64,000 nucleotides of DNA from the NCBI RefSeq assembly GCF_900156685.1, contig NZ_FTOJ01000001.1:434001-498000 (forward strand), read 5' to 3'. Positions 45,101-51,979 of the stretch are shown piece after piece (within the stretch, counting starts at the first letter, position 1; each line of letters opens with the position of its first letter). The position numbers were made by a program, and so were the translations under genes. The DNA is from Chryseobacterium piscicola. GTDB lineage: Bacteria; Bacteroidota; Bacteroidia; Flavobacteriales; Weeksellaceae. The notes under the pieces are model-generated. The model did no database searches. It was not told the origin of the DNA and saw only the letters and a program-made list of their open reading frames with translations.

Positions 45101-45555
45101 TAAATATAGAAACGGATCTAGAATTGATGTTGCCAGATTTTTATGTGTCTAGTACCGAAGAACGGCTTTTGCTCTATCAAAAATTAGCAGAAATAGATAA
45201 CGAAAATGATTTGCAAAAATTTGAAGCAGAGTTGGTAGATAGATTTGGTACGTTACCTCATGAAGTTGTTAATTTATTAAAAAGTGTTGCTTTGAAATGG
45301 CTCGCAGCAGAAATTGGCTTCGAAAAAATAGTCATGAAAAATGGGGTTTTCTTAGGCTACTTTCCATCTAATCCGCAAGATAAATTTTATCAAACCGAGA
45401 AATTCAGGAATATTATATCTTATTTAACCCAAAATCCCTCACAGGCGCAATTGAAGGAGAAGGCTAGTAAAGAGGGAAGTAATCTTATGATGCGAAAGGA
45501 TAAAGTGAAAAATGTAGATGAGGTAAATATTTTATTGAAATCTATTTTAGCTTAA
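42178..45555 (+). CDS. mfd: Transcription-repair coupling factor Mfd
   Basis: A DNA translocase that removes stalled RNA polymerase and recruits UvrA. The 1125 residues contain an N-terminal UvrB-like region, a CarD-like RNA-polymerase-interaction domain (VGDYIAHIDHGIGKFMG) and superfamily 2 motor motifs: Walker A GDVGFGKTEVA, DEEH, TATPIPRT, IIESGVDVPNANT and QMRGRVGRS. The C-terminal TRCF domain follows. I start at the ATG at 42178, since the longer frame to 42154 needs TTG and would begin in the leader hairpin's tail. It is monocistronic. Confidence 0.97.
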   Translation: MQLKNIDQVLLPALLKSEFGKDVFTILEKENHISVKGFAGSATSIFTAELFLVQKKTILYIIDEKEDALYVNTEMEDLLGKEKVLYFPATHLEPYQVEKTQNANLVLRTEVLNKINAGKYPKVIVAYAGALSEKVLRKEDFKAISHHIKVGDQLDFDFVDELLNHYQFNQTDFVSEPGEFSVRGGIVDVFSYSNERPYRITFFGNEVENIKTFDIETQLSISKVESFQLVSNMNFSASGTKVSLLEILPQETLIISKNLETSKLKLKTFYEKALEKYETLSKDISHRTPQDLFISNEDFFFEYKKFRTIDFSSVILSGMKTSLLEFNQTSQPSFHKNFELLVEDLEEKEAAGYEMWISFSGDKQKERLESIFEDIGRNESEKREIKFKSFKSELHEGFVDPDNKILIYTDHQIFDRYQRYKTKNSFAKSEQLTLKDLMSLKVGDYIAHIDHGIGKFMGLVKVNNDGKVQECFKLTYKNGDLLYVSIHSLHKISKYNGPDGKEVVLSKLGSPAWKSLKQKTKAKVKQIAFDLIKLYAQRKTAKGFSYSPDSYLQNELEASFVYEDTPDQEKATIDVKKDMEAETVMDRLICGDVGFGKTEVAIRAAFKAATDGKQVAILVPTTILAFQHYRSFKERLKDFPVNVSYLNRFRTAKQKSETLAGLKEGKLDIVIGTHQLVSDKVKFKDLGLLIIDEEHKFGVAVKDKLKTFKSNVDTLTLTATPIPRTLQFSLMAARDLSVIKTPPPNRQPVETHMVGFDEELLRDAISYELQRDGQVYFINNRIENLKDIAGLIQRLVPDAKVITGHGQMEGKQLEQNILDFMDGKYDVLVSTTIIESGVDVPNANTIFINDAQRFGMADVHQMRGRVGRSNRKAFCYLITPPLDMITSDAKKRLEAIEQFSDLGSGFQIAMKDLEIRGAGDLLGGEQSGFINEMGFETYQKMMQEALEELKDDDEFATLFHNEEDRQKLFKSVKEVNIETDLELMLPDFYVSSTEERLLLYQKLAEIDNENDLQKFEAELVDRFGTLPHEVVNLLKSVALKWLAAEIGFEKIVMKNGVFLGYFPSNPQDKFYQTEKFRNIISYLTQNPSQAQLKEKASKEGSNLMMRKDKVKNVDEVNILLKSILA

Positions 45556-45610: not shown

Positions 45611-45913
45611 TGCTGGGTTATTTTGCGGTTTTTTCTCTAGTAATTCTTAATTACTTTTTAAAAAATGGAGCAAAAATTTTAAAAGATATTTTTAAGAATT
45701 GTTGTGGAAATGCAACAGTGACTATTAATTTCGGGGAATTTTCAACCATAATTTTATTTAAAAACTGACAAAAGTCATGTTTTAGAAGAGTTTTTGTTAT
45801 AAAATAAATACTTGAAATTCAATAAATTATAAAATAATTCAGCTCTAACGTTAAAAAATATTAAGTTTATATTAAAAAAAGGTTAATATAGAAAACCGAA
45901 AAATCTAGCCAAA

Positions 45914-45931
45914 CGTGCAATCGATTACGCA
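45914..45931. promoter_or_regulatory. LacI-family-type operator before susC
   Basis: CGTGCAATCGATTACGCA is a near-palindrome centred on ATCGAT with a perfect AATCGATT core and flanks of the TGnAATCGATTnCA kind. LacI-family sugar regulators bind palindromes with a central CG of this form. It is about 37 bases upstream of the candidate -7 box. No regulator gene is in the window. Confidence 0.5.
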
Positions 45932-46034
45932 ATGATTTTAAAGTACTTTTTTAGATAAGAAATTTGTGAAGTAGCTAATCTCAAATTACTTGTCGGAATA
46001 GCAAATTTTAACTCACAAAAAACTCTAATCAATT

Positions 46035-49000
46035 ATGTCATTTGAAAAACTTACAGAATCCGGCTTTCTTGTTCGCAAAAAGCTTGCTGTTTTGTTTCTT
46101 TTTTCTTCTGCGGTAGTATTTGCGCAGCAAGGCAAAGAGATAAGCGGAAAAATAACGAACGACAAACAAGCGGCCATGCCCAATGTGACAGTAAAGGAAG
46201 AAGGAACTGAAAACACTGTAACTACAGACGCAGAAGGTAATTTCATCATTACCCTCCTCAAAGATCAATCATCACTTTCTGTAATCAACGATGGATTTCA
46301 ATCTCAAACTATTCCAGTTGATAACCGTAGTTTTATTGCAATTCCGCTAAGGGAAGACAAAACAAAAACAATAGAGCAAGTAGTGATTGTAGGATATGGT
46401 AGTGTAAAAAAGACCGATCTTACCGGCTCGGTAAACACCCTGAGTGCAGATAAAATAGTAGAAAGAAATACAACAAGTCCGTTAGAAGCCATCCAAGGAA
46501 GTATGCCGGGTGTACAGATTACTTCAAACTCAGGAAGAGTAGGAGATGGATTTAAAATGACAATTAGAGGCAGCAATTCTTTGATTTCATCAGGCAACCC
46601 TCTTTACGTGGTAGATGGAGTTCCTACAGATAATATAGACTTTTTGAATCCACAGGATATCTCTAGAATGGATGTATTGAAAGATGCTTCATCTGCAGCA
46701 ATTTACGGTTCCAGAGGGGCGAGTGGTGTGGTGTTGGTAACTACCAAAAACGGAGCAACCGCAAAAGGAGGAATCAATGTATCACTAGAAACTTCTTACG
46801 GTGTGAGAGCGGCAGCCCGTTTACCAAAAATGATGAGTGGAGCCGAATGGTGGAATTTTCATCAGGCAGCTTACCTGAGTGCCAATCCCAATACTCAGAC
46901 TCCCGCAGCATTGGCTACTTTAGCAGGAAATCAAAGTCCGCTTTTGGTGCAGAGAGCCAATAACGGCTATAATTTTGATTGGTACGATGCCGTTTTACAA
47001 CCTGGTGCAATGCAGAATCATTACATTAATATCTCTGGAAGATCAGAAGGAGGATTAGGGTACAATCTCTCTTTCGGTGCACAAGGAAACGATGGAATTA
47101 TCGATAATGATTCAAACGATAAATACACATTCAAGTTAGGTTTAAATCACAAAATCAACAGCCAATTTTCTACCGGAGCAAATATTACGCTTGCAAGAAC
47201 GATAACAGAATACGGAAGTGATCTGGCGATGAGGTCTGCATTCAGTTTCAGTCCGCTGATCTCTCCTTATGCAGTTGATGCACAGGGAAATGATATTGAA
47301 GGGCAATTGTTTCTACTTCCAGGTAAACTGACCTATCCAGACGGAAGCTGGGCGATCAATAAAACAAGTACGATAAACCCACTTTTTGAAATTGCTAATT
47401 CAAGACAAACAGAAAGAATATGGCAGGCTTTAGGAAATGTATTTTTCCAATATCAGCCAAAAAAATGGTTGTCATTTAAGACCACATTCTCCGGAGGTTT
47501 TGCAAATAACACCTTTGGAATATCCAATTCAGCACAAACAAATGCCGGAATAGCTCTCAATTACAAGAATTCTGCATCTGTAGCGAAAAGCGAGAATTTT
47601 AATTATACTTGGGACAATCAAATCGATGTAAAACATACATTTAATGAAACTCATGACCTAAGTGTATTACTATTGCAGAGTTTATACTCTAATACCGATG
47701 AGTATTTCTATTCTTCATCAAACGGAATGCCTTTCGATATGGGTATTTATGGTGGTGTATTTGGCACACCAACGAGTTTCCAGCTAAGAGATCCTGCACT
47801 TACTCCTCCGTACATGAAAAGAACCTTGAATTCTTATGCGGTAAGAGTAAATTATGGGTTCAGAGATAAATATTTGCTAACGGCTTCTTCAAGATGGGAT
47901 GGATCGTCAGTATTATCTACGGGTAATAAATGGACCGTTTTCCCTTCATTAGCATTAGGCTGGAAAATTAAAAAAGAATCTTTCCTGGAAAATATTGGTG
48001 CCATTTCAGATTTAAAATTAAGAGCAAGTATCGGTTATACAGGGAATGATAATGTTGCTCCTTACCAATCATTAGCTCTTCTGGATCAGCAGACATTTTA
48101 TGCAAACAACAATACATTGGTTCCCGGGTTACAAACTTCAAGTCTTTCTAATCCTAATTTAACTTGGGAAAAAACCAGAGAATTAAATTTTGGGATTGAT
48201 TTCGGATTTCTAAAAAACAGAATTACAGGTACTGTAGATGTGTATGACAGGCTTTCAGAAAATCTGATTTACAGACAGCAACCTCCCGCAGAAATGGGAT
48301 ATAAGATTACCTATGCCAATGTGGGATCTGTAAGCAATAAGGGAGTTGAAGTATTGGTAGTTACAAAAAACATCAAAAGTAGCCTTGTAAATTGGGAAAC
48401 AACATTTACCTACACTAAAAACGTCAACAGATTAGAATCAATTTATAATCAGGATAGAGTAAGTGATATTGGTAATAATTTGATTTTAGGATCAAGTTTA
48501 AACCCAAATTACAACTATGTTTATGATGGAGTTTGGCAGGAAAGTGAAGCGACTCAAGCAGCTGCTTACGGAATGGCACCAGGACAAGCAAGACCAAAAG
48601 ACCTCAATGGTGACGGGAAATTTAATGCTAACGACAGAACGGTAATTGGCAGCTCGGTTCCGAAATGGCAGGGAAGTTTTTATTCGAGACTTACCGTTGG
48701 TAAATTTGATTTTAATTTTTCCATCATTACAAGCCAAGGACAAACAGTGCTGAGTACATTTCACCAAAACTTTGCTGACGTATCAGACAGAGGTCGCCAA
48801 AAAATGGCAATGGAATATTTTGTACCAACCAACAGTGCAGGTGTTGCATCAAATGCCAACAACAGCAACCCAAGACCAGGACCCGTGGCAACAGGCGCTG
48901 GTGCATTTTGGACAACCAATTTCGGGTATTACAGAGAGGTGTCTTTTACAAAAGTGAAAAATATCTCACTAGGATATACTTTTGATACAGAATTTCTTAA

Positions 49001-49160
49001 AAGAATAAAAATGAGCAGCTTGAGAGTTTATGTTAACGTATTAGATCCGTTTGTATTTACAAAATTCGATGGGTATGATCCGGAATGGGCAGCTGCCAAT
49101 ATGGGGATCAACAGACCTGCTGCTATAACAACTCAATTGGGATTAAGTGCTAAATTTTAA
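46035..49160 (+). CDS. SusC/RagA family TonB-linked outer membrane protein
   Basis: A 1041-residue transporter. A signal segment (about 12-32, ending VVFAQ) is followed by a carboxypeptidase-like domain (about 35-105), a TonB-box-like EQVVIVGYG (about 115-123) and a plug with the family's RGSNSLISSGNPLYVVDGVP and AAIYGSRGASGVVLVTTK. The long barrel ends in LGLSAKF. SusC proteins import oligosaccharides or other polymers captured by a SusD lid. Its susD lies 10 bases downstream. No glycosidase, sulfatase or peptidase lies near, so the substrate is open. Confidence 0.95.
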   Translation: MSFEKLTESGFLVRKKLAVLFLFSSAVVFAQQGKEISGKITNDKQAAMPNVTVKEEGTENTVTTDAEGNFIITLLKDQSSLSVINDGFQSQTIPVDNRSFIAIPLREDKTKTIEQVVIVGYGSVKKTDLTGSVNTLSADKIVERNTTSPLEAIQGSMPGVQITSNSGRVGDGFKMTIRGSNSLISSGNPLYVVDGVPTDNIDFLNPQDISRMDVLKDASSAAIYGSRGASGVVLVTTKNGATAKGGINVSLETSYGVRAAARLPKMMSGAEWWNFHQAAYLSANPNTQTPAALATLAGNQSPLLVQRANNGYNFDWYDAVLQPGAMQNHYINISGRSEGGLGYNLSFGAQGNDGIIDNDSNDKYTFKLGLNHKINSQFSTGANITLARTITEYGSDLAMRSAFSFSPLISPYAVDAQGNDIEGQLFLLPGKLTYPDGSWAINKTSTINPLFEIANSRQTERIWQALGNVFFQYQPKKWLSFKTTFSGGFANNTFGISNSAQTNAGIALNYKNSASVAKSENFNYTWDNQIDVKHTFNETHDLSVLLLQSLYSNTDEYFYSSSNGMPFDMGIYGGVFGTPTSFQLRDPALTPPYMKRTLNSYAVRVNYGFRDKYLLTASSRWDGSSVLSTGNKWTVFPSLALGWKIKKESFLENIGAISDLKLRASIGYTGNDNVAPYQSLALLDQQTFYANNNTLVPGLQTSSLSNPNLTWEKTRELNFGIDFGFLKNRITGTVDVYDRLSENLIYRQQPPAEMGYKITYANVGSVSNKGVEVLVVTKNIKSSLVNWETTFTYTKNVNRLESIYNQDRVSDIGNNLILGSSLNPNYNYVYDGVWQESEATQAAAYGMAPGQARPKDLNGDGKFNANDRTVIGSSVPKWQGSFYSRLTVGKFDFNFSIITSQGQTVLSTFHQNFADVSDRGRQKMAMEYFVPTNSAGVASNANNSNPRPGPVATGAGAFWTTNFGYYREVSFTKVKNISLGYTFDTEFLKRIKMSSLRVYVNVLDPFVFTKFDGYDPEWAAANMGINRPAAITTQLGLSAKF

Positions 49161-49170
49161 TTAAAAAATC

Positions 49171-50823
49171 ATGAAAAAAATAATATTAACTTTAGTTTTT
49201 GCTACTTCACTTTTCAATTCTTGCAGTGATTTTATTGAAGAAGAAAGTTTGGCATTTTCACCAGCAGACGAAGCTTTCAAAACAGCGGCTGGATATCAGT
49301 TGCTTGTAAATTCCAATTACGCATGGCTGAAAGGAATTTATGGAGGTGACCCGTGGCTTTTTGTATCTGGTACAGATATGTACGCAGAGGGCAGAACTCC
49401 GGAACCAGCAGGTTTGAGCCAATACACACAACTTATTCCCGCTTCTGAAGGTGTAGATCAGTTGTATATGTCTTGTTATCAATTAATTCAATCTGTTAAT
49501 AAAACCGTTTATTATTCTACACTTACTGAGCAGACTCCTTCTGTACCTGTAATGGTGGGTGAGGCGAGATTTTTGAGAGCCAATGCTTATTTTCTAATGG
49601 TGCAGACCTACGGTGGAGTTCCTATTGTAGAAGAAAATTTTACAATACCAGTTTTACAGTTTAACAGAAACACAGCGCAGGAAGTTTATGCCTATATTAT
49701 AAAGGAATTAGAAGCTTCTTTAGCCGCAGTAAACACAAGCGCTTATGCTTCCAGTGGAAGAGTAAATAAAAAAGCGGTAAATGATCTTTTAGCCAAAGTA
49801 TATCTTACAAGAGGATATGAAACTTTCGGGTTATCAACAGATTTTGCAACCGCTGCTACGTATGCAGACGCAGCAATTGCAGGTCAGCCACTTACCATGA
49901 CTCCGGCACAGCTATCCTCACCGGGAACAGCAAATGAACTAGGTCCGGAAACAATTTTCTCAGTGCAGTATGATTTACAGTCCACAAGTACATCTCCTAC
50001 GACTTTAGGAAACAAACAATTTTACTTTTTTAGTTCTTACCTTGGAGGAGCAGAAACTCAAGGAAACGCCCCTTTGAGAAGTTATAATCTTTGTCCTACA
50101 AAATATGCAATTGAATTATTTAAACAAGGGGACTTGAGGTGGGAAGCTACTTTTATGAATGTTGTTTATGAGAGATATTACGATTTTTTCAGAGTAGCAG
50201 ATAAATCTACACTCAAAATTAAACATTATTACGAGCCAACGTGGTACACGGCTGCGGACAAAACTGCTTGGATGACTGCTAACGCTTCAAAATTAGCAAC
50301 AGGTTTTATTTATCATGATAAAGGAACTTATGATGCAGCTTATACCTTGGTGAAAAATTTAGATTATCAAACGATTCCGGTGAAAAAATTTGATGATCCT
50401 GCGTTAACTACACCATCAAGCACAGGCCCCGTAAGCACTAGAGACATCATAGTTTCTAGATTGGCAGATACTTACCTTATTGCAGCTGAGGCTTATCTGA
50501 AAGCAGGAAATCCGGGAGTGGGTCTTGCAAGATTAAACACCGTGAGAACAAGAGCCGGAGTTCCTAGTGCTACCTCAGCAGAATTTAATATTAATTATAT
50601 TCTTGATGAAAGAGGAAGAGAAATGCTTGGCGAATACAACAGATGGTTTGATTTGAAACGTACAGGAACTTTGGTTACAAGAGCGGTACAATACAATTAT
50701 AAAATCACCAATGCGTCCCAGTTTAACGGAAACGGGGGGAATCAGAAAATTCTAAGACCAATTCCGCAAACGGTATTAGATTTAAATCAAAATAAAAACT
50801 TTCCGCAGAATCCTGCTTACTAA
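49171..50823 (+). CDS. SusD/RagB family nutrient-binding lipoprotein
   Basis: A 550-residue surface lipoprotein forming the lid of the SusC channel. The signal peptide ends in LFNSC (lipidated cysteine near 18). The N-terminal SusD-like part shows ASEGVDQLYMSCYQLIQSVNKT and GEARFLRANAYFLMVQTYGGVP. The C-terminal RagB/SusD part shows DIIVSRLADTYLIAAEAYLK and the typical ending ILDERGREMLGEYNRWFDLKR and LRPIPQTVLDLN. It is 10 bases behind susC. The operon ends in a terminator 27 bases after its stop. Confidence 0.95.
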   Translation: MKKIILTLVFATSLFNSCSDFIEEESLAFSPADEAFKTAAGYQLLVNSNYAWLKGIYGGDPWLFVSGTDMYAEGRTPEPAGLSQYTQLIPASEGVDQLYMSCYQLIQSVNKTVYYSTLTEQTPSVPVMVGEARFLRANAYFLMVQTYGGVPIVEENFTIPVLQFNRNTAQEVYAYIIKELEASLAAVNTSAYASSGRVNKKAVNDLLAKVYLTRGYETFGLSTDFATAATYADAAIAGQPLTMTPAQLSSPGTANELGPETIFSVQYDLQSTSTSPTTLGNKQFYFFSSYLGGAETQGNAPLRSYNLCPTKYAIELFKQGDLRWEATFMNVVYERYYDFFRVADKSTLKIKHYYEPTWYTAADKTAWMTANASKLATGFIYHDKGTYDAAYTLVKNLDYQTIPVKKFDDPALTTPSSTGPVSTRDIIVSRLADTYLIAAEAYLKAGNPGVGLARLNTVRTRAGVPSATSAEFNINYILDERGREMLGEYNRWFDLKRTGTLVTRAVQYNYKITNASQFNGNGGNQKILRPIPQTVLDLNQNKNFPQNPAY

Positions 50824-50850
50824 AAACCTTTTATATAAATTGATTATTGG

Positions 50851-50880
50851 AGAGACTGTGTAAAAACCAGTCTCTTTTTT
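50851..50880 (+). terminator. Terminator of the SusCD operon
   Basis: AGAGACTG pairs with CAGTCTCT around the loop TGTAAAAAC, followed by a T-run. Confidence 0.85.
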
Positions 50881-51037: not shown

Positions 51038-51979
51038 ATGAAAAAACTTTTCTATTTTATTTTACTGGTTGCAGGTTTGTCTTCTATACATTCTTGTAAA
51101 GATTTGGTAGACGAAGAAGGAAATCCGCTTCTTGATCTCAATGATAACACAGGTCTTATAGGACCAAGATCTTTATTTAGAGAAATTACAAACTCTGACA
51201 CCATTGCTGAATACCGTTACAATGGTCTTTTACTCTCAAAAGCACTTACAAAAGGAAAAAGAACAAAATCTGTTACAGACTTGATGTGGAGTGGTGATAA
51301 AATAAGTAAAATTACTTTCTACGGATTTTTGGATGAAGATAAAAATGGTACTCTAGATAACGATAGTGTTGCATATACCCAATTATTGACTTACGGCGCT
51401 GGCGGTAGATTAACCATTATCGCAGAAAACAGAATCAGCTATGTGAAAACTGTTCCTCCAGGAAGTACTATTCCTGTTTTACCATGGGTTGTAAGCAAAA
51501 AGTATAAGAAATTATACAATCTTGAATACGCAACAGGAACGGATAAATTGAGCAAAATTACCATGAAAAATGGTGAAGAAATAACAGGAGTAAATTTTGA
51601 TTACACAACTTATTCGGTATCTAATTATACGTATACAGGTGACAATATCTCTAAAGTAGAAAGAAATTACGGACCAATGACTGGAGGTACTATGGGTACA
51701 GCTACGGAAAAGTATAAGTATGAATACTTTACGTTTGATTCTCAAATTAATCCTCATACATTATTGCCTTTTGCTTACAAAGTTTCTTCTTTGCTGGCAA
51801 CAAGAGTAAACGATGAGAAGAGCCAAAGTCTCTCTATCAATAATCCGAGAAGATTGACAGTTACAGACATGATGGTTCCTATTCCTACACCAATTGTATT
51901 TACTACCAATTATGCATACGATCTCCAGACTTACATGACGAGAGGATTTGGTATCAATTACATTTACAAGCCACAATAA
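51038..51979 (+). CDS. Hypothetical lipoprotein with YD-like strand repeats
   Basis: A 313-residue lipoprotein (signal ending SIHSC, cysteine near 20). The mature part has repeated short beta-strand units such as SDTIAEYRYNGLLLSK, WSGDKISKITFYG, DKLSKITMKNGEE and YTGDNISKVERNYG. These resemble the DUF4595/RHS-like repeats of Bacteroidetes surface proteins. The role is unknown. It follows susD by 214 bases with its own promoter and terminator, so membership in the SusCD system is uncertain. Confidence 0.75.
   Translation: MKKLFYFILLVAGLSSIHSCKDLVDEEGNPLLDLNDNTGLIGPRSLFREITNSDTIAEYRYNGLLLSKALTKGKRTKSVTDLMWSGDKISKITFYGFLDEDKNGTLDNDSVAYTQLLTYGAGGRLTIIAENRISYVKTVPPGSTIPVLPWVVSKKYKKLYNLEYATGTDKLSKITMKNGEEITGVNFDYTTYSVSNYTYTGDNISKVERNYGPMTGGTMGTATEKYKYEYFTFDSQINPHTLLPFAYKVSSLLATRVNDEKSQSLSINNPRRLTVTDMMVPIPTPIVFTTNYAYDLQTYMTRGFGINYIYKPQ

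Follow-up and report, generated by a model that had tools for sequence, protein, structure and literature searches.

The window, a 64,000-nucleotide stretch of a Chryseobacterium piscicola contig, carries a two-gene operon, susC–susD, preceded by a short palindrome (Table 1). The two genes, separated by 10 bases, encode a SusC/RagA TonB-linked protein followed by a SusD/RagB protein, the arrangement of a SusC/SusD importer. The first product scores 714 bits against TIGR04056 (cut-off 368) and the second 127.7 bits against PF07980 (cut-off 23.1). The second also resembles SusD homologs of solved structure, to a weak or moderate degree. The first-pass annotation of this DNA had described a CG-centred palindrome of the kind bound by LacI-family regulators about 110 bases ahead of susC, which agrees with what we found: the 18 bases reported, CGTGCAATCGATTACGCA, occupy positions 45914–45931 and end 103 bases before the susC ATG (46035). 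Our analysis indicates that this susCD pair is most likely under the same LacI-type regulator as the pectin-digestion genes of the genome. The substrate of SusCD pairs devoid of enzyme neighbours usually cannot be assigned; here, a 16-base operator points to pectin.

Table 1. Features of the susC–susD operon and its upstream region (positions in the window).
Feature	Position	Strand	Details
TTAATATAG block, candidate promoter element	45883..45891	+	20–25 nt upstream of operator, conserved
LacI-type operator (predicted), 16-base form GTGCAATCGATTACGC	45915..45930	.	exact RYGYAATCGATTRCRY match, conserved in orthologs
susC, SusC/RagA TonB-dependent outer-membrane transporter, 1041 aa	46035..49160	+	TIGR04056, TIGR04057, Plug, CarbopepD_reg_2
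susD, SusD/RagB-family glycan-binding protein, 550 aa	49171..50823	+	PF07980, PF14322
Intrinsic-terminator-like hairpin with T-run at the operon end	about 50849..50877	+	−15.6 kcal/mol, z −4.0

According to passages of a survey of the LacI family (PMC4052901), its operators are even palindromes with a CG pair at the centre, more than 75% of them located about 140 to 30 bp upstream. The window site has this form, with a perfectly palindromic 8-base core, AATCGATT, two matching pairs among the five outer ones and a 16-base form, RYGYAATCGATTRCRY, placed 104 bp from the susC ATG, inside the usual range. The bare core occurs at chance frequency (3 in the window versus 2.07 expected), and the 12-base form GNAATCGATTNC, used in place of the differently spaced pattern GNNAATCGATTNNC (0 matches), is not enriched, with seven occurrences in the genome versus six for the reversed control. 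Because of this, the argument is carried by the longer 16-base form, for which we obtained four exact matches in the 3.45 Mb genome and none with the reversed control, and 312 exact sites across 173 genomes of the genus versus 19 with the reversed pattern. The motif was derived from six sites, four in the source genome and one each in genomes G024 and G064; the fair tests are therefore those made in other genomes. Three of the seven 12-base places are intragenic: C11:488823 and C11:542778 were dropped as chance matches, and C22:50500, inside a pectinesterase gene, has one mismatch to the 16-base form. Eight of the twelve places with two mismatches, those covered by a gene-level inspection, lie within open reading frames (ORFs) and were likewise taken as chance, including C6:61440, inside a susC-like ORF (stretch L018).

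All four exact sites of the source genome precede susC or genes of pectin, uronate or rhamnose utilization. Besides the window susC, they lie ahead of the susC of a pectin polysaccharide utilization locus (PUL; C22:56348), of the kduI–kduD–uxaC operon divergent from it (C22:57225) and of rhaT within a rhamnogalacturonan locus (C11:756270). The pectin locus encodes GH28, GH43, GH105-type (PF07470) and DUF4861 proteins, pectinesterases, a PelZ-like pectate lyase scoring under the family cut-off, a second SusCD pair (named by resemblance), KduI, a KduD-type SDR, UxaC, a PfkB kinase, a KDPG aldolase, an MFS transporter, a tagaturonate reductase (uxaB), an altronate-hydrolase-type protein (uxaA) and a LacI protein, P0001. 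The rhamnogalacturonan locus encodes GH106, PL11, GDSL esterases, a GH105-type protein, RhaT, an aldolase-dehydrogenase and SusCD (by resemblance). The earlier expectation that the degradative enzymes and the regulator are encoded elsewhere, and that the operator would serve as a handle on the rest of the regulon, is thus borne out by these three further sites and by the LacI gene of the pectin locus. A one-mismatch operator was also observed at C22:34618–34633 (L037:11618), where it overlaps the 5′ end of a DUF4861 gene that precedes a PL10 pectate lyase gene. In three relatives (L147, L155 and L169), exact operators occupy the equivalent position; the DUF4861–PL10 operator therefore probably sits at or within the gene start.

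The proposal of LacI control called for a LacI-family gene in the genome, and three were found: P0001, C6:55033 and C18:86738. The gene for P0001 (342 amino acids) lies next to uxaB–uxaA of the pectin locus, at a distance of about 12 kb from the susC and kduI operators there. With orthologs called at E values up to 1e-60 in the 173 genomes, all 92 genomes that encode a P0001 ortholog contain the exact operator, compared with 1 of the 81 lacking the ortholog (Fisher p 2e-49). For C6:55033, the site occurs in 56 of 87 carriers and 37 of 86 non-carriers (56/31/37/49 for both, regulator only, site only and neither; p 0.006), and for C18:86738 in 27 of 43 carriers and 66 of 130 non-carriers (27/16/66/64 in the same order; p 0.22). 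The operator thus has a LacI gene in the same genome whose phyletic distribution matches its own. Only three recognition-helix sequences, TAATVSRAL, TASTVSRAL and SVATVSRAL, each ending in TVSRAL, occur among the 55 P0001 relatives compared. In Epilithonimonas-type orthologs, conservation is higher in the DNA-binding domain than in the core.

Orthologs of the window SusD are present in 10 of the 173 genomes, and all ten carry a P0001 ortholog, versus 82 of the 163 genomes lacking SusD (p 0.0014). In a scan of named genomes, we obtained 33 SusD loci, four of which (L125, L126, L141 and L145) were left out of the upstream test as susC or its 5′ end was not found. The first-pass annotation would have been undermined by a motif not conserved ahead of orthologous susC genes; in all 29 intact loci, the operator lies within 2 kb upstream of susC with at most one mismatch (25 exact), while the remaining 404 kb of the same loci contain no exact site and reversed controls gave none. 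The operator is retained even where the orthologous proteins share about 50% identity. In Algoriphagus oliviformis, two adjacent operators, one exact and one with one mismatch, precede susC with starts 16 bases apart (L143:6803–6834).

Almost every Flavobacteriaceae locus has pectin PUL genes (among GH28, GH43, GH105, DUF4861, pectate lyase and uxaA/B) on the flanks of the pair; the truncated locus L126 shows none of this set. The typical order is uxaB–uxaA, LacI gene, operator, GH28, susC, susD, esterase, DUF4861, GH105, GH43, pectate-lyase-like gene and GH28, and the LacI protein shares 54–59% identity with P0001. In contrast, none of these enzymes is encoded within the stretch examined around the Weeksellaceae loci (Chryseobacterium and Epilithonimonas). 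The description of the pair as an orphan consequently holds for the source genome and fails for the family, most Flavobacteriaceae loci being part of a pectin PUL. In the SusD tree (midpoint rooted for drawing), the 15 Weeksellaceae rows form a single clade (support 100/100) among Flavobacterium rows, and P0001 orthologs (70–95% identity) were identified in 14 of the 15 Weeksellaceae genomes that carry a SusD locus. Since the pair is inside the PUL in Flavobacteriaceae and alone in Weeksellaceae, with the site and P0001 in both, the Weeksellaceae pair is, as judged from these comparisons, one that lost, or arrived without, its PUL yet kept the operator. An importer located outside its PUL would in this way still be coupled to it. 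No relatives of SusD were detected on plasmids at an E value of 1e-50.

Upstream of the orphan pairs, the TTAATATAG block is present in 14 of the 14 Weeksellaceae regions compared, and the operator has a mean pairwise identity of 88% versus 34–55% for its flanks. This block differs from the canonical TAnnTTTG promoter, which was not found in the region between 159 bases upstream and about 60 bases downstream of the four operators. If the block is a promoter, the operator covers the transcript start, as with a repressor.

We therefore favour, with a probability of about 0.82, the reading in which the palindrome is a P0001 operator and susCD encodes a TonB-dependent importer for pectin fragments, oligogalacturonides being the likeliest, with the pair embedded in the PUL in Flavobacterium and standing alone in Chryseobacterium and Epilithonimonas. 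The shared operator, the co-occurring regulator and the pectin genes around the orthologs all emerge from sequence comparison; from these we infer binding by P0001, its polarity, the ligand and the inducer. A pectic oligosaccharide would be the ligand of SusD/SusC, given the PUL context of the orthologs and the common operator. P0001 would probably act as a repressor: when pectin is absent, a LacI dimer on the operator, just 3′ of the promoter-like block, would block transcription, and an intracellular uronate intermediate would cause its release, turning on the importer along with pectin lyases, esterases, the second SusCD and the uronate pathway. The operator thereby points to a probable regulator and delimits a regulon open to testing, which is present in roughly half of the genus genomes searched.

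It is also conceivable that P0001 acts on the same operator as an activator or dual regulator, needing its inducer to turn on susCD. The spacing between operator and start codon, variable among targets, would suit such a mode of action, but the operator occupies a blocking position relative to the promoter-like block in every orphan locus compared, and characterised LacI-family proteins are mostly repressors, so that we regard activation as unlikely. Binding by one of the other two LacI proteins, C6:55033 (encoded beside a fructokinase-like gene) or C18:86738, deserves mention as both belong to the family and have intact DNA-binding domains. However, the distribution of neither gene follows that of the site well, the recognition helices are not those of P0001 (SVATVSYVL and STSTVSRAL, respectively) and no 12-base-form site exists in the 20 kb stretch around either gene, which makes this explanation very improbable. 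Even harder to sustain is a chance match upstream of a susCD pair for an unrelated substrate: the frequency of the 8-base core and the unenriched 12-base form would agree with it, but the site is conserved ahead of distant orthologs and is missing from 80 of the 81 genomes without P0001. Two other modes of regulation were rejected, namely control by an extracytoplasmic function (ECF) sigma/anti-sigma pair, no such gene adjoining the operon and no STN domain matching in SusC by family search, and control by a hybrid two-component system (HTCS), no regulator gene being adjacent.

Several observations weigh against assigning the operator to P0001. Genome G177 (73% complete) has two sites without P0001, and locus L124, from a metagenome-assembled genome of 2.6 Mb, has a site with a best LacI match of only 29%. 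The Fisher p values overstate the evidence because the genomes share ancestry, even if the contrast among the three regulators stands in these comparisons despite it. Many sites share the locus of P0001 and could have been gained or lost together with it. In the source genome, no exact site lies beside P0001, uxaB or uxaA, and the count of four sites is partly circular, as four of the six motif-defining sites come from there. In Flavobacterium orthologs, the conservation of the DNA-binding domain is just modestly above that of the core. The sites of L146 and L152, in the xylose group described below, fall within a sugar-kinase gene instead of an intergenic region, and the repressor polarity is deduced from operator position only.

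A broader proposal, which we put forward tentatively and at somewhat less than even odds, is that P0001 is the master regulator of pectic sugars in Flavobacteriales, replacing the membrane HTCS sensors used by Bacteroides, and that the operator kept detached PUL pieces in the regulon. If so, one cytoplasmic LacI protein would command outer-membrane uptake, secreted pectinases and the genes for uronate, rhamnose and, in some species, xylose, and detached pieces such as the window susCD would stay in the regulon despite their new chromosomal place.

A parallel for a LacI-type repressor over TonB-dependent outer-membrane uptake is SuxR of Xanthomonas, which belongs to another phylum and acts in a system without a SusD partner, for sucrose instead of pectin. 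The nearest solved relative of P0001 by sequence is CcpA (1zvv, E 1.4e-51), whose helix, SMATVSR, is almost the same. The cre sites of CcpA are similar CG-centred palindromes; unlike P0001, CcpA is a global regulator of Firmicutes with HPr as co-repressor. P0001 falls short of the CcpA family model (TIGR01481), scoring 184 bits against a cut-off of 442. TonB-dependent receptors in plant-carbohydrate utilization loci are described in portions of a Xanthomonas study (PMC1790865). In Bacteroides, according to parts of two regulon studies, the LacI regulators KdgR (BT0487) and UxaR (BT0824) control glucuronate and galacturonate catabolism and form one branch with UxuR (PMC3878776, PMC4052901), and rhamnogalacturonan PULs are under HTCS control (PMC3878776). 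LacI control of uronate catabolism is therefore already known in Bacteroides, and the P0001 system would add another example, the likeness lying in the LacI family and in the control of uronate catabolism in Bacteroidota. In the sections of these studies concerned, KdgR and UxaR control mainly cytoplasmic monosaccharide catabolism and few periplasmic or extracellular genes (PMC3878776, PMC4052901), whereas the operator described here precedes SusCD, pectin-degradation and catabolic operons. The LacI survey comprises a single Bacteroides group, with no word beginning with Flavobacteri in its text (PMC4052901). Gramella flava JLT2011 has a comparable flavobacterial pectin PUL with susCD, pemA, kduI, uxaA and exuR, a regulator gene whose name refers to hexuronate utilization, and a LacI gene in the same figure legend; the sections of that article dealing with the PUL describe no operator, regulon or detached SusCD pair (PMC5306329). 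Excerpts of three further articles describe regulators other than P0001 (PMC3870299, PMC5334617, PMC12125979), and in the open-licence literature searched for LacI together with pectin, SusC, Flavobacterium or Chryseobacterium, no title or abstract opening among the papers listed describes this operator.

The surroundings of the operon agree with the earlier description of a unit without glycosidase, sulfatase, peptidase or regulator gene and closed by a terminator. No enzyme or regulator gene adjoins susC–susD, as judged from ORFs and Pfam/NCBIfam searches: the upstream neighbour, mfd (named by sequence resemblance), ends at 45555, and the downstream ORF (51038–51979) matches no Pfam or NCBIfam family. 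The hairpin and T-run after susD were revealed by folding (0 of 200 shuffles fold equally well), although a consensus terminator scan did not report them. Because relatives of ORF 51038–51979 are present in 98 of the 98 genomes of the genus examined, we consider it a core neighbour outside the operon. In 7 of 29 loci with this neighbour in other genomes of the genus (L178, L180, L181, L182, L184, L188 and L201), the mfd end is near with no susCD between; the short stretches of the remaining 22 show no mfd match. As mfd and the core neighbour are found without susCD between them, the pair reads as an accessory insert within a core neighbourhood. Among the Chryseobacterium loci with SusD, L113–L115 have the mfd neighbourhood of the window and L116–L120 differ. 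The product of ORF 51038–51979 looks secreted and its gene adjoins pth in the loci seen; several relatives have a second copy beside it, 26–35% identical, which is missing from the window.

Elsewhere in the genus, 28 exact sites outside the main susC/kduI pair (L146–L173) were inspected among the matches listed, as part of the 312. Three of them are found by rhaT, three by DUF4861–PL10, two by the orphan susC and one by a gene without identity. In nine loci (L148, L157, L159, L161, L163, L165, L166, L170 and L173), the operator lies between a GntR-type regulator gene and a gene for a small DUF4440 protein, with a sugar kinase gene nearby. Five sites are located ahead of or within genes of xylose type, for a kinase, an isomerase-like protein or a sugar transporter (L146, L150, L152, L162 and L168), the xylose isomerase being named by resemblance without a Pfam match, which suggests that the regulon absorbed xylose use in those relatives. 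In five others (L149, L154, L158, L160 and L172), the operator is directly ahead of a gene encoding a PL1–CBM77 pectate lyase that bears a type IX secretion tail, so that the predicted regulon of relatives extends to an enzyme encoded away from the PUL. The L172 site is the sole exact operator of genome G112.

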